This document shows positions 52,625 through 61,002 of a DNA stretch of 64,000 bases, piece after piece (the stretch's first letter is position 1; every line of letters begins with the position of its first letter). This DNA comes from Lactobacillus iners DSM 13335. GTDB taxonomy: Bacteria; Bacillota; Bacilli; Lactobacillales; Lactobacillaceae. The stretch covers positions 1 through 64,000 of the forward strand of contig NZ_GG700809.1 in assembly GCF_000160875.1 (NCBI RefSeq). Reading direction: 5' to 3'. A program made the translations under genes and the position numbers. The notes beneath the pieces are model-generated. The model worked only from the letters and a program-made list of their open reading frames with translations. It was not told the origin of the DNA and searched no databases.

Positions 52625-53890
52625 ATGAAAAAAATGATTATTCATGGTGGAAAGCCCTTAAAGGGCGACGTATGGATAGGTGGAGCAAAAAATTCAACAG
52701 TAGCTTTAATTCCAGCGTCAATACTTTCTCGTACGACCGTTGTTTTAGAAGGTGTACCTCGTATCGCTGATGTAGATAATTTGATGGATTTGTTAGGTGA
52801 AATGGATGTTAAATGTAAATTTGAAGAAACTACATTGACCATTGATCCTGAGAATATTAAGCGTAGTCCATTGCCAGCAGGCAAGATAAAGTCTCTACGT
52901 GCATCATATTATTTCATGGGTGCTCTTTTGGGTCGCTTTGGAAAAGCTGTTGTAGGATTCCCAGGTGGGGATGATATTGGGCCTAGACCGATCGATCAAC
53001 ATATCAGAGGATTTGAAGCATTAGGTGCTAATGTGGAAAATGAAGATGATAAAATTATTATTACAGCTCCTGAAGAAGGGTTAAGGGGTGCAAAAATATC
53101 TCTAGCTATGCCTTCCGTTGGTGCCACTATGAATATTATTATGGCATCAGTAACTGCTAATGGACAAACTGTAATAGAAAATGCAGCTAAAGAACCTGAG
53201 ATTATTGATTTAGCCATATTTTTAAATAATATGGGTGCAGTAATTAGAGGAGCAGGTACTGATACGATTAGAATTAATGGTGTCAGTCAGTTAAAGGCAA
53301 AAGCTTCACATACGATTATTCCAGACAGAATTGAAGCAGGTACATATATTTCTTTAGCAGCTTGCATTGGTAATGGTATCAGAATTCATAATGTAATTAC
53401 GGAACATTTGGATAGTTATCTTGCTAAGATTGAAGAAATGGGCGTTGTAACGGATGTTGATGAAGATTCAATTTTTGTTTATCCAGCAGGCGATCTTAAG
53501 ATGGTTCAAATCAAAACTGAACCGTATCCTGGTTTTGCTACAGATTTACAACAGCCAATTACACCACTTTTATTAACTGCTAAAACTGGCGAGGGTATAA
53601 TAATTGATAATATATATCCTAAGCGTGTAGGGCATGTGCCCGAGTTGCGAAAAATGGGTGGCGAGATTTGTGTGGAAAATAATATTATTTTGATCCACCC
53701 TAGTTCTAAATTAAAAGGTATGGATGTTAATGCTGGTGAAATTCGTGCTGGTGCTGCTTTAATGATAGCAGGCTTGATGGCTGATGGTGAAACTGTTATT
53801 CATAATGCAGGCAACATTTTGCGAGGATACGATCGTGTTCAAGATAAGATTCGTAAGTTGGGTGGCGATATAACTGTTGTTGAAGAATAA
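52625..53890 (+). CDS. murA: UDP-GlcNAc 1-carboxyvinyltransferase MurA with Asp at the fosfomycin site
   Basis: A 421-aa enzyme performing the first committed step of peptidoglycan synthesis. The inside-out alpha/beta barrel has Lys/Asn in WIGGAKNSTVALIPA and the conserved loop around 113-122. There the usual GGCxIG, whose Cys acts as acid and is the target of fosfomycin, reads GGDDIGPRP with Asp116. The same Cys-to-Asp change gives intrinsic fosfomycin resistance in Mycobacterium. The ATG at 52625 is taken as start; a TTG 12 bases upstream is too near the AGAAGG site. Lactobacilli often carry two MurA copies. Confidence 0.94.
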   Translation: MKKMIIHGGKPLKGDVWIGGAKNSTVALIPASILSRTTVVLEGVPRIADVDNLMDLLGEMDVKCKFEETTLTIDPENIKRSPLPAGKIKSLRASYYFMGALLGRFGKAVVGFPGGDDIGPRPIDQHIRGFEALGANVENEDDKIIITAPEEGLRGAKISLAMPSVGATMNIIMASVTANGQTVIENAAKEPEIIDLAIFLNNMGAVIRGAGTDTIRINGVSQLKAKASHTIIPDRIEAGTYISLAACIGNGIRIHNVITEHLDSYLAKIEEMGVVTDVDEDSIFVYPAGDLKMVQIKTEPYPGFATDLQQPITPLLLTAKTGEGIIIDNIYPKRVGHVPELRKMGGEICVENNIILIHPSSKLKGMDVNAGEIRAGAALMIAGLMADGETVIHNAGNILRGYDRVQDKIRKLGGDITVVEE

Positions 53891-53948
53891 TTAAGCTTAC
53901 GAGTAAACAAATCCCCTATTTTCTAAAATTTTTCGAGAGGTAAATATT

Positions 53949-54668
53949 ATGTCAGAATTATTAGGTGAGTTCTTCGGTACTATGGTCATGGTGGCTTTAG
54001 GTGTTGGTACTGGAGCAGCTGTTAATTTAAAGAAAAGTTATGCTAAGAATGCTAATTGGTTTTATATTATTTTTGCGTGGGGTTTAGCTGTCACATTTGG
54101 AGTTTATGTTGCTGCTAATTTCGGCTCTAAAGCCCATTTGAACCCTGCTGTTACTCTTGGTATGGCGGTTGGTGGTTATTTCCCATGGGACAAAGTTTTT
54201 ACGTATATTGTAGCTCAATTTATAGGTGCTTTTTTTGGCGGATTGATTCCATACATACATTACTATGCCCACTTTAAAGAAACCAAAAATGAGGCTGAGG
54301 GTAATCATGTAGGTATTTTTGCTACAGGTCCAGCTACTAATAGTCCAATCTTTAATTTCATAGATGAAACAATTGATACTTTTATTTTTGTATTTGTATT
54401 AATTCATTTGGGTAATTTCGGAGAAGGATTAAAACCATTTATTGCAGGATTTTTAGTTATTGTTATTGGATTAGCCTTAGGTCCTACTACTGGATTGGCT
54501 ATGAATCCAGCTCGTGATTGGTCACCAAGATTAGTTTATACAATTTTCCCAGTTCCATATAAATCTACAGCTAATTGGAGTTATGCATGGGTTCCTATGT
54601 GTGGTCCCCTTTTAGGTGGTATTTTAGCAGCTCTCTTGAACTATAGCTTGCAAAACTATATTTTATAA
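53949..54668 (+). CDS. MIP-family channel (aquaporin/glycerol facilitator)
   Basis: A 239-aa channel with six helices and both NPA boxes: LNPAVTLG (about 60) and MNPARDWSPR (about 183). The Asp after the second box (NPARD) is typical of glycerol-conducting GlpF-type pores. It probably carries glycerol, water, or both; relatives in lactobacilli also pass lactic acid or dihydroxyacetone. A GAGAGG site precedes it. Its original palindromic terminator has been split by an insertion (54675-54702 and 59023-59049). Confidence 0.92.
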   Translation: MSELLGEFFGTMVMVALGVGTGAAVNLKKSYAKNANWFYIIFAWGLAVTFGVYVAANFGSKAHLNPAVTLGMAVGGYFPWDKVFTYIVAQFIGAFFGGLIPYIHYYAHFKETKNEAEGNHVGIFATGPATNSPIFNFIDETIDTFIFVFVLIHLGNFGEGLKPFIAGFLVIVIGLALGPTTGLAMNPARDWSPRLVYTIFPVPYKSTANWSYAWVPMCGPLLGGILAALLNYSLQNYIL

Positions 54669-54674
54669 TTTTAT

Positions 54675-54702
54675 CTAATAAAAAAAGCAACATTTTAAAA
54701 TG
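54675..54702 (+). terminator. Left half of the split channel-gene terminator
   Basis: CTAATAAAAAAAGCAAC followed by ATTTTAAAATG. Its exact complementary arm, GTTGC, seven Ts and ATTAG, lies at 59032-59048. Joined, the halves make one perfect long terminator palindrome. The 11-bp core ATTTTAAAATG is present at both junctions (54692-54702 and 59023-59033), as expected for a target duplication. Confidence 0.75.
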
Positions 54703-54719
54703 CAATGTCATTAAGTTAA

Positions 54720-54830
54720 GATATTGACGAAAATAGAGCTTGATGAACCGAATAATTTTGATTCGGTTCTTTTTCTTTTTAAAAGAAAAGTGAGCAGAGT
54801 TTTTGTCTTTCTGCTCACTTTCGTCATATC
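54720..54830. repeat. Nested inverted repeats forming a three-way-junction-like element
   Basis: GATATTGACGAAA (54720-54732) pairs with TTTCGTCATATC (54819-54830) with one bulge. Inside are two further hairpins: GAACCGAAT/ATTCGGTTC (54745-54769) and GTGAGCAGA/TCTGCTCAC (54790-54818). The first is followed by Ts and can act as a terminator. The whole lies at the left end of the insertion and may be a structured RNA or an element end. Confidence 0.55.
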
Positions 54831-54885
54831 ATTGGTCTTTCATAGAAAATTGTGGTTCTTATGAAATACCTTCACTTAACTATTA

Positions 54886-54975
54886 TTAAACATATCGATA
54901 AATGCCTTGAAAAGCGTTGCTGAATTCGTCAATGTCTTTCTTGATGTAAGAAAGGTTATAGCATGGATTTTTTTA
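54886..54975 (-). other. Short open fragment, possible gene remnant
   Basis: A 28-codon open stretch between stops on the minus strand ends in the residues KKDIDEFSNAFQGIYRYV. It has no start codon or ribosome site. It looks like the C-terminal end of a larger protein, perhaps a transposase, but I cannot assign a family. The rest of 54669-55068 holds only the repeats listed. Confidence 0.25.
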
Positions 54976-55000
54976 CTTGCATAGATTTTTTTGAAATTTT

Positions 55001-55026
55001 ATTTTAATTTTGTAGTGCTAGCACTA
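55001..55026. repeat. Direct repeat with palindromic core, left copy
   Basis: A 26-bp sequence matches 58607-58632 at 24 positions in the same orientation. Its core TAGTGCTAGCACTA is a perfect palindrome. The left copy lies 43 bases beyond the end of the exporter genes and is continued by an overlapping second palindrome, CACTAATTAGTG. Confidence 0.75.
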
Positions 55027-55068
55027 ATTAGTGTTTATACTATAGAATTTCAGTACTACAGAATAGAT

Positions 55069-56640
55069 CTAAACTAAATGTATTTCTCTATCAAAGAGAC
55101 TGTACATTTCATCATTAAAATTATGAGCTATAAAGATCACAGTATATGGACTATTTAATAACTTCTTTAAAATATCGAGCGTTGCTTTTTTATCTATAGC
55201 ACTAGTGCCTTCATCAATTAAAATAAAATCGTCATCGTGAATGCAAGCCCGAGCTAATACTATTTTTTGTCGCTGACCTCCAGAAATATTTAATTTTTGC
55301 AAATTTAATTTTGTCTTTAGGCCTAATGGCATTTTTCTAATATCAGATTCAAAAGAAACGTCTTTAACATAATCTAATACTTTATTTTTCAATTTCGAAT
55401 TGAACATTGTAATATTATTTTCGATACTATCAGGAAATAATATTGGATCTTGTGGGATATATCTTATCTTAACCTTATTAATTTTAATATCAGCACCATA
55501 TTTATTTTTAAAATTGATCGTACCAGTATGAAGTTTAATTTTACCAAGAAGTACTTTAAATAGAGTGGTTTTTCCAGTTCCTGAGTCACCAGTTAATAAA
55601 ACTTTTTCACCAGATTTTATATTCAAATTGGGAAACTTTATTATTTTCCCATTAGAAAATTTTACTGACACGTTTTTTGTAGTCAAGCTAGCTGGAGACT
55701 GTAAAGTACCTATATGCTCAACTACAGCTGTATCCGCATTAACCTCATTGCTTAAACTATCTACTGAATGAATCTGTCCTAATTCAGTTGCAAGCATTTT
55801 AACTGACATATTGATATAGGAGCTAAAGCTTTCAACAGTTACTATTACACCAAATACAACAGTATGGTTTGTAACTAATACGGCCGTAACTGCTAATAAA
55901 GCAAATTGCAGCAGTGCTGAAGTAGCCTTATTCAATACAGCTAAACCTTGCATAGTACTTGTTCTTGCTATATTTGCACTTTCTAATGTATCAGATGCAT
56001 TATCCATAATCCTAGAAAGCTGTGCACCCACTGAAAACCTTTGAAGTACCGACAGACCATCTAACCATTTTTCAGCTGTATCTAAATACTGCTTATTTGC
56101 TTGAGATAGCTTTAGAGCAGCTGCTTGCATAGCGGGACGAAGAAATTTAGGCAAATAAAAGCTGAGCGTTCCCAATATCAAAACGACAATTAATAGACTC
56201 CAATGAAACAGCAACAGCCCAATCGAGGCAAAAATAATTTGAGCTAAATAGTATGGAATATCTGTATATACTGCTAGCTTTGAATCTTTTATTAAGTTCA
56301 GATCGTTAGTTAAGCGATTCTGAACTTCGGCAGCATTATGTGCTTTATTATCATAAAAATAATGGTTTACTATTTTAAATCTTATTTTATGATTATATTG
56401 CTGAATTTGTTTTTCAATCCAATACTGACAAATATTAAGACTAGCATAACTTATAATAAATAAAATTAAAGATAGAGTAATCAGAAAAATAAATTGTTGC
56501 CATTTTCTGTTTTTAATGGCCGTTATTTGATATGTATTAATATAGCTGACCCCAATTATTAAACCAGAAGTTAAGAATTCTAGAACTAATAGCGATATCA
56601 TTCTTATTCTATTAACAGCATATATATCTTTAAAAGACAC
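55069..56640 (-). CDS. ABC exporter, fused membrane and ATPase domains (second of a pair)
   Basis: A 523-aa half-transporter. Hydrophobic helices lie at about 12-35, 48-70, 120-145, 150-165 and 230-265. The ATPase domain (about 315-523) has Walker A GDSGTGKTT, Q-loop YIPQD, signature NISGGQRQK, Walker B FILIDEGTSAID with catalytic Glu, and H-loop IAHN. No C39 peptidase is attached. It begins 20 bases after its paralogue on the same strand. All catalytic residues are present, so homodimer or heterodimer are both possible. Substrate unknown; a peptide is suggested by the small gene heading the operon. Confidence 0.88.
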   Translation of the reverse strand: MSFKDIYAVNRIRMISLLVLEFLTSGLIIGVSYINTYQITAIKNRKWQQFIFLITLSLILFIISYASLNICQYWIEKQIQQYNHKIRFKIVNHYFYDNKAHNAAEVQNRLTNDLNLIKDSKLAVYTDIPYYLAQIIFASIGLLLFHWSLLIVVLILGTLSFYLPKFLRPAMQAAALKLSQANKQYLDTAEKWLDGLSVLQRFSVGAQLSRIMDNASDTLESANIARTSTMQGLAVLNKATSALLQFALLAVTAVLVTNHTVVFGVIVTVESFSSYINMSVKMLATELGQIHSVDSLSNEVNADTAVVEHIGTLQSPASLTTKNVSVKFSNGKIIKFPNLNIKSGEKVLLTGDSGTGKTTLFKVLLGKIKLHTGTINFKNKYGADIKINKVKIRYIPQDPILFPDSIENNITMFNSKLKNKVLDYVKDVSFESDIRKMPLGLKTKLNLQKLNISGGQRQKIVLARACIHDDDFILIDEGTSAIDKKATLDILKKLLNSPYTVIFIAHNFNDEMYSLFDREIHLV

Positions 56641-56660
56641 TTATAATCACCTCTTATTAT

Positions 56661-58232
56661 TTACAAGCTAATCTTTCTACTAAATAGTTTTTCCATATCT
56701 TGAGTTAAATTATGAGCTATTACAATAACTGTCTTATTCGATGATACTAAGTTTTTTAGAATACGATAGCTACTTCTTGAATCTATTGCACTAGTTGCCT
56801 CATCAGCTAAAATAATAGAAAAATTATGTATCTCATTACGAGCTAAAATAATTTTCTGTTTTTGCCCTCCAGAAAAATTAATCGTGTCTAAATCAATTTT
56901 TGTTTCAAATCCGTTTGGCATACTAGCTATATCTTTACTTAAATCATTGTTTTCAATAGAATTTTTTACCTGCTGTTTCAACTTATTATTGAACATAATA
57001 ATATTGTTGATAATAGAAGTAGGAAAAAGCTTACCATCCTGAGGAATATAACCAATTTGAGCATAATCTGGACTAATTTTTTTACCATATTTATCTTCAA
57101 AAATAACTTGTCCCGTAGTTGGGTACATTTTATTAAGAATTAATTTAAATAGCGTAGACTTACCAGTACCACTATCTCCACTAAGCAACACTTTTTCGCC
57201 TTTTTTAATACGAATATCTGGGAAGTGTATTGTTTCTCCATTTTTAAATGAAATGCTTAAATCATGTGTACTAATTGAGTATATTTCATCAGTATTAATT
57301 TCTTTATGAGAGGGGATTACCTTTTGGGACTCAACAATTTGTTTGTTAAGCTCTTGAACTGATTGAATTCGTGTTAACGATGTAGTAATTGGCAACAAAC
57401 AATTTAAAATCATAGAGGAAAAGTTACCGGCTGCTATTATTACTCCGAAGGTTACTTGATGATTAAAAAATAAGATTGCTGCTAACAGAGTAATCGCAAT
57501 TTGAGAGAAAGAATTGGCACATCCGTTAAGAAAATCTGCAATAGAAATTACTTTTTTTCTTTTTACGAAGCTTGTTTCTAGATTTTTACTAACTTCTTGC
57601 ATGACTAAGTTTAGTTTATTAAAAGCAGTATACTTTCTTAATTCTTCTAAGCCATTAAACCATTCTTCAATAGCTAACAAATATTTACTATTTCTATTAA
57701 CCACTTTTTGCGTTGCATTAGAGGCTCTTTGTCTTGTAAAACGAGGAATGTAAAGTGTAATAACTGATAGAATTAATGCCAATAATGTAAGCATCCAATT
57801 CATTAGAAGAAGGCTGCCAATAGACGTAACCAACAAGAAACTTGATTGAATAATACTTAAAGACTTATCGGCATAATTTTTAGTAAGCACTTGTAAATTA
57901 CCATTTAATTCATTTTCCATTTCAGCCACTTTAAGTGCCTTGTCATGAAAGTATTTGCTTATTAATTTATGTCTAATACTGTGAATATATTTTTGAGTTT
58001 GTTTACTAAAAAGATAGGTAGCTAACGAGCTGAAAATGTAAGAAACGAATGAAAGGAAAACACTACTGGCAATAATTATCAAAAAACCTATGAGAATATT
58101 TTTAACTAATTGATTATAGGCAAATTGTATAATATATGAGCTTGTTGCAGATCCTGCTGCAAATAATAGCTCTAAAACAATTATTACAAAGAATAAGAGT
58201 AAATTAGTTTTAATTAATTTTTGAAAACTCAT
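56661..58232 (-). CDS. ABC exporter, fused membrane and ATPase domains (first of a pair)
   Basis: A 523-aa half-transporter with the same length and layout as its neighbour. There are about six hydrophobic helices in 1-280, then the ATPase with GDSGTGKST, YIPQD, NFSGGQKQK, SIILADEATSAID and IAHN. The pair probably arose by tandem duplication and has since diverged. A TTAATCAC-type weak site is seen before the ATG. It lies 10 bases after the 67-codon gene, so all three are one operon driven by the promoter at 58545-58517. The operon is inside the insertion that split the channel terminator. Confidence 0.88.
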   Translation of the reverse strand: MSFQKLIKTNLLLFFVIIVLELLFAAGSATSSYIIQFAYNQLVKNILIGFLIIIASSVFLSFVSYIFSSLATYLFSKQTQKYIHSIRHKLISKYFHDKALKVAEMENELNGNLQVLTKNYADKSLSIIQSSFLLVTSIGSLLLMNWMLTLLALILSVITLYIPRFTRQRASNATQKVVNRNSKYLLAIEEWFNGLEELRKYTAFNKLNLVMQEVSKNLETSFVKRKKVISIADFLNGCANSFSQIAITLLAAILFFNHQVTFGVIIAAGNFSSMILNCLLPITTSLTRIQSVQELNKQIVESQKVIPSHKEINTDEIYSISTHDLSISFKNGETIHFPDIRIKKGEKVLLSGDSGTGKSTLFKLILNKMYPTTGQVIFEDKYGKKISPDYAQIGYIPQDGKLFPTSIINNIIMFNNKLKQQVKNSIENNDLSKDIASMPNGFETKIDLDTINFSGGQKQKIILARNEIHNFSIILADEATSAIDSRSSYRILKNLVSSNKTVIVIAHNLTQDMEKLFSRKISL

Positions 58233-58242
58233 CTTTAATCAC

Positions 58243-58446
58243 CTAGATCCTATAATTATTTTTAATAATATCGGCTTTTTCTAAGGGGGACGGATAAATA
58301 TATATCTGTCTTTTTAAATCAGCTTGCAATTTTGAAGTTGATACACCAGATCTATTAAAAGAATCTAACATTTCAATTTGTCTAGCAAAAGGATCATCAG
58401 AATGATTTGCTAATAAATATTGTTTCTTTTCATTAGCCTTTTCCAT
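58243..58446 (-). CDS. Small protein (67 aa) heading the ABC-exporter operon
   Basis: A 67-aa soluble protein, begun by ATG with a GGAAGGAAG site 8 bases upstream and a near-consensus promoter, so expression is very likely. It has no Cys, signal peptide or membrane helix. The N-terminal half is acidic and polar (HSDDPFARQIEMLDSFNRSG), and the C-terminal half is basic with a Tyr/Pro-rich part (KRQIYIYPSPLEKADIIKNN). I do not recognise the family. Position directly before two exporters suggests a precursor peptide or a small partner of the transporter. Confidence 0.72.
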   Translation of the reverse strand: MEKANEKKQYLLANHSDDPFARQIEMLDSFNRSGVSTSKLQADLKRQIYIYPSPLEKADIIKNNYRI

Positions 58447-58516
58447 AAAAAATACTTCCTTCCAATAAAAAGATATTTCTTTCTAAATGGATGTAGTTCA
58501 TTTGGAAATTAAGGTA

Positions 58517-58545
58517 ATAATATTGCCTTTTTATTAATTAGTCAA
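58517..58545 (-). promoter_or_regulatory. Promoter of the small-protein/ABC-exporter operon
   Basis: On the minus strand TTGACT (58545-58540), 17 bp, TATTAT (58522-58517). The palindromic repeat at 58619-58632 lies 74 bp upstream of this -35. Confidence 0.75.
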
Positions 58546-58606
58546 CGCATTTTTTAATTTTTTATATTATTCTTCTTCATTTAATACTTGTTATTTGCTA
58601 AAAATG

Positions 58607-58632
58607 ATTTTAATTAAGTAGTGCTAGCACTA
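58607..58632. repeat. Direct repeat with palindromic core, right copy
   Basis: Matches 55001-55026 at 24 of 26 positions, with core TAGTGCTAGCACTA (58619-58632). It is upstream of the exporter-operon promoter. The sequence after it (TATAGAAT) also recurs a little beyond the left copy (55041-55048). Confidence 0.75.
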
Positions 58633-58706
58633 TAGAATATTACCAAAGAAAGTTTCTTAGTTCATAATAATTTTTGTAAGAAATTGAAACTACTGTGAGG
58701 TGCAAA

Positions 58707-58787
58707 ATGACTAAAATTATAACCTTTGGTAACTTCCATTCACCCAATGCAACGTTTAAATTACTATGGAGTAACTGGAATTACTAA
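58707..58787 (+). CDS. Possible micro-gene (26 aa)
   Basis: A 26-codon frame (MTKIITFGNFHSPNATFKLL, then WSNWNY) with a GTGAGGTG site 5 bases before the ATG. It is divergent from the exporter operon. No promoter is obvious and it may be chance. Two overlapping short frames follow (to about 58880), so the stretch could be a degraded gene. Recorded because of its ribosome site and position. Confidence 0.25.
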   Translation: MTKIITFGNFHSPNATFKLLWSNWNY

Positions 58788-58796
58788 TGACAGTTG

Positions 58797-58958
58797 TTAC
58801 GATGAAAAAAGTATTTGAAGTTTATAAGCAAGTTGTAAATGATCTCTATTATGACCACCAAAATGTAAATCTAGTCCTTTAATTTCAAGTTTATTTAAAC
58901 TTCCGAGTTGCTTTTTAATTTCTTGACGTTGTTGCTTAGTTAAAGTGAGTGGCTGCAT
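58797..58958 (-). pseudogene. Short ORF at the inner side of the IS-end relic
   Basis: A 53-codon frame starting MQPLTLTKQQRQEIKKQLGS, helical and basic. It lies directly inside the terminal repeat (58990-59022), where an IS would carry the start of its first gene, and reads inward from that end. It has no clear ribosome site and no recognised transposase motif, so it is listed as a possible truncated IS gene. Confidence 0.3.
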
Positions 58959-58964
58959 AAAAAT

Positions 58965-59022
58965 AACGTAGCAGTCATATAAACTGCTACGCTAAAAAGT
59001 CTAACTTTTTGGGGTCACATCA
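58965..59022. mobile_element. IS-end-like relic at the right border of the insertion
   Basis: AAAAAGTCTAACTTTTT followed by GGGGTCACATCA ends exactly at the right 11-bp junction repeat (59023). Read outward-in it begins TGATGTGACCCC, like IS3-family (IS150-group) ends. A hairpin built on GTAGCAG/CTGCTAC (about 58968-58991) sits inside it. The same end, slightly decayed, occurs at 4908-4944. No intact transposase remains. Confidence 0.55.
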
Positions 59023-59049
59023 ATTTTAAAATGTTGCTTTTTTTATTAG
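59023..59049 (-). terminator. Right half of the split terminator
   Basis: ATTTTAAAATG, then TTGC, seven Ts and ATTAG: the arm complementary to 54675-54702. It lies 17 bases after the stop of the DUF2187 gene and would have been a bidirectional terminator before the insertion. Confidence 0.65.
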
Positions 59050-59065
59050 CTACAAGCGAATTATT

Positions 59066-59353
59066 TTATTGTTGATCATCTTTTGCTTCAATTTTGGATA
59101 TTTTGATTTCGTTAGTAGGTGTTTCAGCTTGTTTTGATGGTTTTTTAGCTAATTTCTTAAGATTTTTAAAACTAACTACTATTTTTCCATTAAGATCACT
59201 AACATTTGTTTCATCTTCTGGTTCATAGGATGTAATAGATAATAATACTGAGTTTTCGTATATTTTTTCTACTTTACCTTCAAATGGCTTGGATATTTCT
59301 TCATCAGATTTTGCACCTACGATAGAATCTATTTTGATATCGCTTTTTTTCAT
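59066..59353 (-). CDS. DUF2187-family protein
   Basis: A 95-aa cytoplasmic protein. IDSIVGAKSDEEISKPFEGKVEKIYENSVLL and VVSFKNLKKLAKK match the KOW-like DUF2187 (YkvS) family, probably a small beta-barrel. The C-terminal tail is polar and charged. The start at 59353 follows AGGAAAGAG; a longer frame to 59419 has a Tyr/Ile-rich extension with no ribosome site. Function unknown. Confidence 0.78.
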   Translation of the reverse strand: MKKSDIKIDSIVGAKSDEEISKPFEGKVEKIYENSVLLSITSYEPEDETNVSDLNGKIVVSFKNLKKLAKKPSKQAETPTNEIKISKIEAKDDQQ

Positions 59354-59445
59354 GAAAAACACTCTTTCCTTATTAGTATGATATCGTATACAATAGTGAA
59401 ATAATATTATAAAAATCAAGCAATTTCAAGCAATAGGAGTATATT

Positions 59446-60003
59446 TTGAAAAAAATCATTATCATTGCTGGCCCTAGTGGTGCTGGTAAGACCACTATAT
59501 CTAATTATTTGCAGGAAAAATACAATATACCACGAGTTTTAACACATACTACGAGACCGCCGAGGGCAGGCGAACAAAATGGCAAAGAGTATTATTTTGA
59601 GACCGATAGTAGTTTTAGTAAACTTCATCTATTTGAAAAAGTAGAATATGGCCATTATCAATATGGCTCAAGTCAGGAGTCTCTACAAAAAGCTTGGAGT
59701 CAACATGATTTAGTTTCTATCATACTTGAAACCCAGGGTGTCAATTCGTATTTTCATAAGCTACCGATTGATAATATTTGTTTTATTTATATTACAATTA
59801 GTGATCATTCTAAATTAATGCAACGTTTGATTGGGCGAGGGGATGCTCCTATTGAAATAAATAAAAGGATTAATAGTTCAGAATTTAAACGTGATTTGCA
59901 ATTGCATGGCGTTTTAAAAAAGTATGCTCATATTGTAGTCAATGATAATTGGCAAGATACTAAAGGAACTATAGCAAAGTTGATTGATCAGATACAACAT
60001 TAG
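59446..60003 (+). CDS. Guanylate-kinase-like P-loop protein
   Basis: A 185-aa protein. The P-loop GPSGAGKTTISNYL is followed by VLTHTTRPPRAGEQNGKEYYF, the GMP-binding segment of guanylate kinases (Arg, Arg, Glu and Tyr kept). YGSSQESLQKAW replaces the usual YGT region, and the lid has RLIGRGDAP. It is shorter than Gmk (about 205 aa) and diverged, so a main gmk probably exists elsewhere. TTG is the start, with TAGGAG five bases upstream. Real nucleotide specificity is uncertain. Confidence 0.8.
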   Translation: MKKIIIIAGPSGAGKTTISNYLQEKYNIPRVLTHTTRPPRAGEQNGKEYYFETDSSFSKLHLFEKVEYGHYQYGSSQESLQKAWSQHDLVSIILETQGVNSYFHKLPIDNICFIYITISDHSKLMQRLIGRGDAPIEINKRINSSEFKRDLQLHGVLKKYAHIVVNDNWQDTKGTIAKLIDQIQH

Positions 60004-60055
60004 TGGTTTTTTGAAATATTTATTACATAATTTTGTAATCAATGTGCTTTAATTC

Positions 60056-60072
60056 TGTAACATGGATGTAAT
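60056..60072 (+). promoter_or_regulatory. WalR (YycF)-type box upstream of the NlpC/P60 gene
   Basis: TGTAAC, five bases, TGTAAT matches the WalR consensus TGTWAH-N5-TGTWAH exactly. A TACAAT -10 lies at 60084-60089, so the box covers the -35 position as for an activated promoter. Extra TGTAAT half-sites are at 60034 and 60095. Confidence 0.7.
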
Positions 60073-60145
60073 ACTAATCAGATACAATAGTCATTGTAAT
60101 AAATTAAGATTTTAAAGCGACAGAGAGTCGCAGGAGGAACCTGAT

Positions 60146-60847
60146 TTGAAACCACTTATGTCTAGATTATTTAAATTCACTTTGGCTACAACTATTGCTG
60201 TGACTGGTGTTGTAGTATCTAATTCTTTAAAACCAGTTAAAGCAAAAGCTGCTGGTGTTATAGCTAAGGTTAATTATGTACCTGGTTATGGCATAGCTGT
60301 CTGGAATAATATAAATGGCGGACATACTACTGGTCAGTATTTACCTCATGGAAGTAGATGGGTAGTTGTTAAGACTTCTTATGATAAACAAGGTAGATTA
60401 TGGTACGATTTAGGCCACAATCATTGGGTATTAGCTTCATATACTGTTTCTGATTCTACACCTGTTTCTCAATCTGCATCAGCTAACACTAGTGTAAAAG
60501 CTAGTGCACAAGCTATAATTAATTTTGCTCTTAAACAACAAGGCAAGCCTTACGTATATGGTGCTGCAGGTCCTAGTGCATTTGATTGCTCAGGCTTAAC
60601 TTCATACGTTTATAAGCAAGTTACAGGTCGTTATATTGGTAGAACTACTTATAATCAATTGAATGCTGGTACACGAGTTAGCGTTAGTCAATTACAACCA
60701 GGTGACTTAGTATTTTGGGGTAATTATCATGTTGGTATTTACATCGGCAATGGACAATATATTCACTCACCACAACCTGGACAAAGTGTTACTGTAGCTA
60801 ATATTTCTAGTTATTACTACCCTTCATACGGTGTTCGTGTACTTTAA
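60146..60847 (+). CDS. Secreted NlpC/P60 peptidoglycan endopeptidase
   Basis: A 233-aa wall hydrolase. The signal peptide (about 1-36) has the core TLATTIAVTGVVVS and a cleavage site near VKAKA. An SH3-like wall-binding domain (about 40-98) contains YGIAVWNNINGGHTTG and RLWYDLGHNHWV. A Ser/Thr linker leads to the NlpC/P60 domain (about 118-233), with Cys in FDCSGLTSYVY, His in NYHVGIYIG and the third polar residue His in YIHSPQPG. It cuts stem peptides. TTG start with AGGAGGAA upstream. The WalR-type box fits the control of such hydrolases. Confidence 0.92.
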   Translation: MKPLMSRLFKFTLATTIAVTGVVVSNSLKPVKAKAAGVIAKVNYVPGYGIAVWNNINGGHTTGQYLPHGSRWVVVKTSYDKQGRLWYDLGHNHWVLASYTVSDSTPVSQSASANTSVKASAQAIINFALKQQGKPYVYGAAGPSAFDCSGLTSYVYKQVTGRYIGRTTYNQLNAGTRVSVSQLQPGDLVFWGNYHVGIYIGNGQYIHSPQPGQSVTVANISSYYYPSYGVRVL

Positions 60848-60869
60848 TTCTTAATTGCATATATTTAAA

Positions 60870-60897
60870 AGGTATCAAGTTGTTGATGCTTTTTTTG
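60870..60897 (+). terminator. Terminator of the NlpC/P60 gene
   Basis: A 7-8 bp stem, GGTATCAA with TTGATGC (one wobble), is followed by seven Ts. Confidence 0.75.
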
Positions 60898-61002
60898 TTT
60901 TCTTAGTGCTTCAATTTATGACTACTAATTTTTTATATATAATAATTTAGCTGAACTACGTGATATAATAACTTAATAGAGTAAGGCAGAGGAAGTAATT
61001 AT

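Follow-up and report, generated by a model that had tools for sequence, protein, structure and literature searches.

A probable terminator palindrome split by a 4.3-kb insert in Lactobacillus iners and a candidate terminator-seeking group of IS4-family elements

Background

The first 64,000 nucleotides of contig NZ_GG700809.1 of Lactobacillus iners DSM 13335 (the window; G+C 32.5%) raise the question of how 4.3 kb of DNA carrying two ABC exporter genes came to lie within a palindrome that probably once terminated both neighboring genes. Terminators are plentiful, gene-sparing insertion places in compact genomes; read-through should make splitting them costly. The explanation favored overall, in which we have good confidence, is that an insertion sequence (IS) of the IS4 family entered the terminator, that an IS3-family element followed, and that a plasmid captured between the two was reduced by deletions to its two exporter genes, which were kept as pumps.

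A palindrome split by the insert

The insert (54703-59022) separates a MIP/aquaporin channel gene on the forward strand (53949-54668; PF00230, E 3.4e-41) from a DUF2187-like gene on the reverse strand (59066-59353; PF09953, 23.9 bits against a cut-off of 24.7). The two halves of the palindrome, 54675-54701 (forward strand) and 59023-59049 (reverse strand), complement each other without a mismatch over 27 bp. No longer exact inverted repeat with a spacing of more than 100 bp is present in 53001-61000; in 40 dinucleotide-preserving shuffles the maximum was 16 and the mean 13.5. The outer arm CTAATAAAAAAAGCAAC lies at 54675-54691 and its complement GTTGCTTTTTTTATTAG at 59033-59049. An 11-bp duplication, ATTTTAAAATG, has its left copy at 54692-54702 (strandless) and an exact match at 59023, with which the right half begins; these are the only two forward-strand copies in the window. 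An earlier, sequence-only reading had described one perfect palindrome cut by the insert, with its center present at both junctions, and both points were confirmed. Its left arm was also placed correctly, the right arm one base off at 59032-59048, and its bounds for the insert were exact, with an IS4-family repeat starting at 54703 and an IS3-type end finishing at 59022.

When the flanks were joined computationally they folded at -24.7 kcal/mol (-22.0 on the measure used for the IS4 relatives below), and the joined palindrome, CTAATAAAAAAAGCAACATTTTAAAATGTTGCTTTTTTTATTAG, is the predicted empty site between the two genes. The hairpin finder used for the IS4 ends missed it in spite of this stability, presumably because the finder trims only a few outer pairs and the T-run lies inside the stem. 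Since the channel gene and the DUF2187-like gene are convergent and the palindrome has A- and T-runs, it was probably their shared bidirectional terminator. It had previously been assigned to the channel gene alone; the insert did enter that terminator, and the DUF2187-like gene is presumed to be its other former user.

The IS4-family remnant at the left junction

The left end of the insert (54703-54943, strandless) is the internally deleted remnant of an IS4-family element. Its left terminal repeat, CAATGTCATTAAGTTAAG, is perfect and matches to IS copies start exactly at 54703; about 200 bp of the left end are followed by a right-end-like stretch, judged from a weak alignment, that runs to GTCAATGTCTT. 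In all, about 240 bp of the element are left and the transposase gene is lost. An IS4 right end was ruled out as the right boundary of the insert, as no right IS4 terminal repeat was found in the window at up to three mismatches. The assignment to the family follows the relatives: the transposase of the L. amylolyticus copy (L075) scored 149 bits with the NCBIfam IS4 model NF033592 (cut-off 115), and the YREK motif was present in L075, L131, L137, L140, L151 and L153 and missing from the longest open reading frame (ORF) of L130. The target duplication, 11 bp in the window and 9-11 bp in 15 relatives, corresponds to about one helical turn and agrees with the IS4 element, not with the IS3 element now adjoining the right copy.

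In the L. kefiranofaciens plasmid pWW2 (L079:1763-2596), too, a MIP gene is followed directly by a left end of this IS4 group.

Target sites and terminators of the IS4 relatives

The relatives were chosen from search matches with preference for copies having both ends. Of 43 loci examined, 24 could be end-paired and 15 of these had an exact duplication of at least 9 bp; only these 15 entered the folding, arm-exchange and inward-terminator counts, and the 19 loci without paired ends were unscored. Ten of the 15 came from genome G014, two from G018 and one each from G023, G008 and an L. amylolyticus plasmid. The copies are 1,655-1,663 bp long, start with CAATGTCATTAAGTTAAG or a close variant and end in its complement. 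Their duplications, 9-11 bp in length (15 of the 24 end-paired copies), all differ in sequence.

With the flanks brought together so that a single copy of the duplication remained, 13 of the 15 sites folded at -10 kcal/mol or better, as opposed to 49 of 210 pairings in which the right arm was exchanged. The mean fold of the joined sites was -14.0, that of the exchanged pairings -7.1 (sd 0.66), and none of 400 permutations reached the former value. The duplication spans the hairpin loop at most of the 15 sites. Moreover, all 15 copies have an inward-facing terminator no more than 170 bp from each end, which begins 42-49 bp inside the element at 29 of 30 ends; a terminator was present in only one of 210 internal windows of the same size taken from both strands of the same copies. 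As the 15 copies are related, the terminator counts are not independent. These relatives support the proposal that the IS4 group inserts into the loops of rho-independent terminators.

Among the remaining loci there are two pairs, L143 and L144 (G021) and L145 and L146 (G029), in which one flank of each copy is matched by the opposite flank of its partner, a pattern suggestive of recombination between the copies with rearrangement of the intervening DNA. Three shorter copies, L142 (282 bp), L147 (417 bp) and L146 (1,205 bp), have terminal repeats at both ends and may have arisen from the group by deletion.

The IS3-type fragment at the right junction

The insert ends with the right end of an IS3-family element (58966-59022, strandless), terminating in GGGGTCACATCA. 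Over the last 25 bp, AGTCTAACTTTTTGGGGTCACATCA, the sequence is similar to IS3-family right ends: a 24-bp match (95.8%) lies 11 bp past an annotated IS3 transposase gene in Brevibacillus (H143/L173), and there is an 86% match in Monoglobus. The last base, 59022, was judged from the junctions of L171 and L173. The terminus TCACATCA, which had been read as IS-like, is thus an IS end of the IS3 type, as in L173. By eye, the elements in L171 and L173 are flanked by an A-run arm on one side and a complementary T-run arm on the other, and their duplications measure 5 bp (L171) and 3 bp (L173). A search with the L171 end returned one Enterococcus record annotated as ISEfa10 at the match. IS3-family elements such as ISEfa10 share with the window a similar right end with its inward hairpin, and show short duplications between terminator-like arms in L171 and L173; the window keeps a 57-bp end only. 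No reverse copy of the IS3 end was found in the window at up to three mismatches, and the interval has no long ORF except the ABC genes, hence no IS3 transposase gene. The IS3 piece is a fragment, not an element able to move.

Probable replacement terminators in the insert

A terminator scan of 54600-59450 returned two sites only. The first, borne by the IS4 remnant at 54745-54769 (forward strand, -11.3 kcal/mol, z -3.2), is the first terminator-like site downstream of the channel gene, and the second, at the IS3 end at 58964-58994 (reverse strand, -19 kcal/mol, z -4.8), is the first downstream of the DUF2187-like gene; both fold better than shuffled sequences. The structures suggest that each flanking gene has been provided with a replacement terminator. 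Because both IS ends carry inward terminators that are met soon after each flanking gene, the insertion should cost little.

The plasmid-derived middle

The DNA between the IS ends (54932-58965, strandless) is derived from a plasmid. Over 54932-58309 it is 90% identical to L. gasseri, L. paragasseri and L. johnsonii plasmids (L034, L035 and L036). It overlaps the IS4 remnant briefly, with the join at a shared ATGTCTT. Scraps follow. Past the promoter-side DNA, those of the plasmid backbone (58618-58965, strandless) match L034, L036 and L037; they come from an AAA-family ATPase gene and the DNA upstream of it, and from a small hypothetical gene beside a RelB/DinJ-type antitoxin gene. Eleven plasmid records cover at least 77% of the 4.4-kb query, and in ten of them a ThiF gene lies under the match or in the region read, the exception being JV-V03. 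The hosts of several matching L. gasseri plasmids are human urine isolates. In L. intestinalis, L037 shows the plasmid backbone without the cluster.

The L. johnsonii plasmid p9785L and the L. gasseri ThiF/YcaO-like plasmids are source-like DNA that keeps the full cluster, whereas the L. iners chromosome keeps pumps and scraps only. In p9785L the cluster comprises a 47-aa peptide, a SagB-like protein, a 338-aa hypothetical protein with HELFGH, which we take to be a TldD-like HExxxH motif, a ThiF-like protein, a YcaO-like protein and the two ABC genes. Strong matches were obtained only for the ThiF and ABC genes. The whole is a putative RiPP cluster of the ThiF/YcaO (azole) type, a type marked by genes for a precursor peptide, an E1-like protein, YcaO and a dehydrogenase. 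The ThiF-like protein matched PF00899 (1.5e-27) and MccB structures (1.1e-21), the YcaO-like protein reached 24.5 bits against a cut-off of 25.7 and the SagB-like protein 19.4 against 78.4; solved structures gave no meaningful match for the 338-aa hypothetical, YcaO-like and SagB-like proteins. A pure microcin C reading of the cluster was dropped, as the cluster has, besides the MccB-like protein, weak YcaO-like and SagB-like genes.

Within the window, no biosynthesis genes for a ribosomally made peptide of the ThiF/YcaO type were found beyond scraps in a 67-aa ORF (58243-58446, reverse strand). This ORF, which had been taken for the small protein of an exporter operon, proved to be a deletion scar in which three biosynthesis genes are fused: residues 1-9 of the precursor peptide, residues ~78-118 (less five) of the ThiF-like protein and the C-terminus of the YcaO-like protein. 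Ten of eleven matches to the ORF start with MEKANEKKQYLLAN; therefore the fusion is common to strains. The forms differ by a five-residue gap and in the reading frame of the C-terminus, variation that makes a conserved small protein less likely; the 56-aa form P0006 is found on 458 contigs and the 67-aa form of the window on four. A bacteriocin or signal peptide was accordingly rejected as the main reading of the ORF. The longer L. iners form is matched at 40 of 41 positions by P0133, a 338-aa ThiF relative, and at 38 of 41 by P0132 (99% identical to an L. johnsonii protein), so an intact near relative exists.

The exporter genes

The two intact exporter genes, abcB (55069-56640) and abcA (56661-58232), are both on the reverse strand, and each encodes a protein of 523 aa with PF00005 and PF00664 domains and 92% identity to its plasmid counterpart. 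At about 90% DNA identity to the L. gasseri/johnsonii plasmids, they are acquired genes, as the sequence-only reading had proposed. The dN/dS values of the window genes against four relatives, 0.10-0.13 for abcA and 0.12 for abcB, indicate that both are under purifying selection. Walker A and signature motifs are kept in both proteins; the Walker B pattern matched abcA only. In the best 120 of 234 matches, there are at least 28 abcA proteins of 514-528 aa with at least 97% identity, from L. iners where the species is named.

In the regions read, pumps without adjacent biosynthesis genes occur in three places: the window, the JV-V03 plasmid and the G039 chromosome. The YcaO-like remnant begins at residue 177 in JV-V03 and at residue 239 in G039, so that the end points differ. 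The exporters are most likely orphan immunity or efflux pumps directed against a peptide encoded by related plasmids. The foremost alternative, that they are decaying hitchhikers and do nothing for L. iners, is in keeping with the wrecked remainder of the block, the small ORF that shifts frame among strains and the shorter length of some abcA proteins. The low dN/dS, the preserved motifs, the near-full-length variants and the three places where pumps outlasted the biosynthesis genes make this alternative rather unlikely.

The G039 Lactobacillus chromosome has the same exporter pair (L169:8887-12202) with no biosynthesis genes in the 19 kb read; the pair is near two MFS pump-like genes (by eye), and a MIP-like gene (39% identity) is about 3.3 kb away.

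Proposed history of the locus

The favored history, with two IS elements and a captured plasmid, would begin with an IS4-family element entering the terminator loop between the channel gene and the DUF2187-like gene and duplicating 11 bp of its center; the exact end at 54703, the duplication and the 15 relatives support this step. The next arrival would have been an IS3-family element, whose kind has also been seen in terminator-like arms; it probably landed 3 bp inside the right ATTTTAAAATG with a short duplication that restored the copy and created the present junction. An L. gasseri/johnsonii-type plasmid with a ThiF/YcaO-like cluster would have been captured between the IS elements; the identity shows the plasmid origin, and the route may have been IS3-mediated cointegration or recombination. 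Repeated deletions would then have stripped most of the plasmid and all of the biosynthesis genes, leaving the two intact ABC genes.

The sequence-only reading had treated the 4.3 kb as a single acquired unit, a view that fails, since the ends belong to IS4 on the left and IS3 on the right and the middle is a much-deleted plasmid fragment. In its strongest form this would be one composite transposon that brought in the exporters and produced the 11-bp duplication in a single step. The duplication does stand precisely on either side of the 4.3 kb. However, the two ends paired by a transposase are alike, and here the ends come from different IS families with unlike terminal repeats, on which ground the single transposon was rejected; the stepwise plasmid deletions of the interior also count against it, and we consider it very improbable. 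Least credible of all are two separate look-alike terminators, since, although convergent genes can each have a terminator and a short palindrome, ATTTTAAAAT, is present in both halves, the 27-bp perfect complementarity exceeds the maximum of 16 in the shuffles, the halves fold poorly with their present neighbors (-0.7 and -3.8 kcal/mol) and an IS end abuts each half.

Several observations weigh against the history with two IS elements or against the target rule on which it draws, 1) no L. iners site lacking the insert, or at an intermediate stage, came to light and searches of the genome collections brought up no close relative, 2) the right IS4 end is missing, so that the duplication was assigned to IS4 from its length and the left end only, 3) for the IS3 end to adjoin the right copy exactly, another insertion must by coincidence have fallen within 3 bp, 4) of the five IS3-type ends, L172 is ambiguous, L078 has no duplication and L077 no left end, 5) the joined hairpin is weak in L132 and L140, and exchanged arms also fold often (the 49 of 210 above), because A-runs pair with T-runs, 6) nine of the 24 end-paired IS4 copies lack a 9-bp duplication, 7) the two terminators found by the scan are not above the number in shuffles (mean 1.3, sd 1.1), 8) five shorter abcA proteins of 97-99% identity exist (P0042, P0049, P0050, P0084 and P0087), which may be contig ends or real breaks, 9) the reading for orphan pumps covered just 64 kb in the window, 15 kb in the JV-V03 plasmid and 19 kb in G039, 10) dN/dS is blind to the share of the window branch that postdates the loss of the biosynthesis genes and 11) the accessible part of a large survey of IS neighborhoods (PMC9208149) reports IS3 and IS1182, not IS4, as over-represented between convergent genes. 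No exact duplication was found at L074, L142, L147, L148 and L149.

The searches for the empty site gave a closest MIP match of 65% in genome contigs and at most 77% identity for the murA-MIP DNA among 75 Lactobacillus genomes. The right 84 bp matched none of these 75, a search that had no positive control and so carries little weight, and viral contigs queried with MIP, abcA and the joined-palindrome core yielded no locus.

Relation to known elements

The only terminator-seeking element recognized in the literature listings was IS1272. As described in the accessible part of Furi et al. 2016 (PMC4923244), IS1272 and TnSha1 and TnSha2 (IS1182 family) seek hairpins, several of them terminators, without sequence consensus, and IS1272-type elements are linked with passenger genes and, in TnSha2, an integrating plasmid. 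The window shares the preference for hairpins and terminators and the link with passengers and plasmids. However, that part of the paper describes a blunt cut in the stem with partial deletion of the hairpin and no target duplication, whereas the window and the IS4 group show a 9-11 bp duplication at the loop without loss of target bases, and the transposase is of another family.

Another known system is subgroup IS4 of the IS4 family, described by De Palmenaer et al. 2008 (PMC2266710). In the accessible part of that paper, the end consensus -AATR--------WTW fits CAATGTCATTAAGTTAAG, and the YREK motif of the relatives and the duplication of about one helical turn are shared. The 15 copies, at 1,655-1,663 bp, compare with 1,400-1,650 in its table, and their duplications of 9-11 bp with 10-13. 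The words "terminator" and "Lactobacillus" each occur zero times in the text of PMC2266710. The literature search, with subscription literature and ISfinder outside its scope, returned no report of an IS4-family element with a terminator target rule or paired inward terminators. As far as these searches reached, a terminator-seeking, terminator-carrying IS4 group would be new.

Whether the Lactobacillus IS4 group is specialized for terminator replacement, its sites then serving as safe landing pads for IS and plasmid DNA, we regard as an even question. If so, the group would recognize a terminator hairpin, insert in the loop with a 9-11 bp duplication and, with an inward terminator about 45 bp inside each end, destroy one bidirectional terminator and put two back. 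With two terminators of its own, such an element would make the splitting of one cost-free, and the rule would flag likely sites of acquired DNA. The L. iners site would be an example of such a landing pad, with a pair of peptide-antibiotic pumps kept after the loss of the biosynthesis genes.

L. iners is a common vaginal species. The locus would give it a concrete acquired trait, export pumps closely related to those of the L. gasseri plasmid peptide clusters.

Other features of the plasmid DNA

A divergent ThiF/YcaO-like/SagB-like peptide cluster was observed on L. gasseri and L. johnsonii plasmids (L035:9316-13093); the literature search, at the level of listings, gave no recognized description of it. 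In the window, the perfect palindrome TAGTGCTAGCACTA occurs on both sides of the ABC genes, at 55013-55026 and 58619-58632, and nowhere else at up to one mismatch. The L034 and L036 plasmids have a second copy of 54985-55063, 75-77% identical, at the opposite side of the cluster. These flanking repeats hint that the ABC genes, or the cluster, may form a mobile or regulated module.

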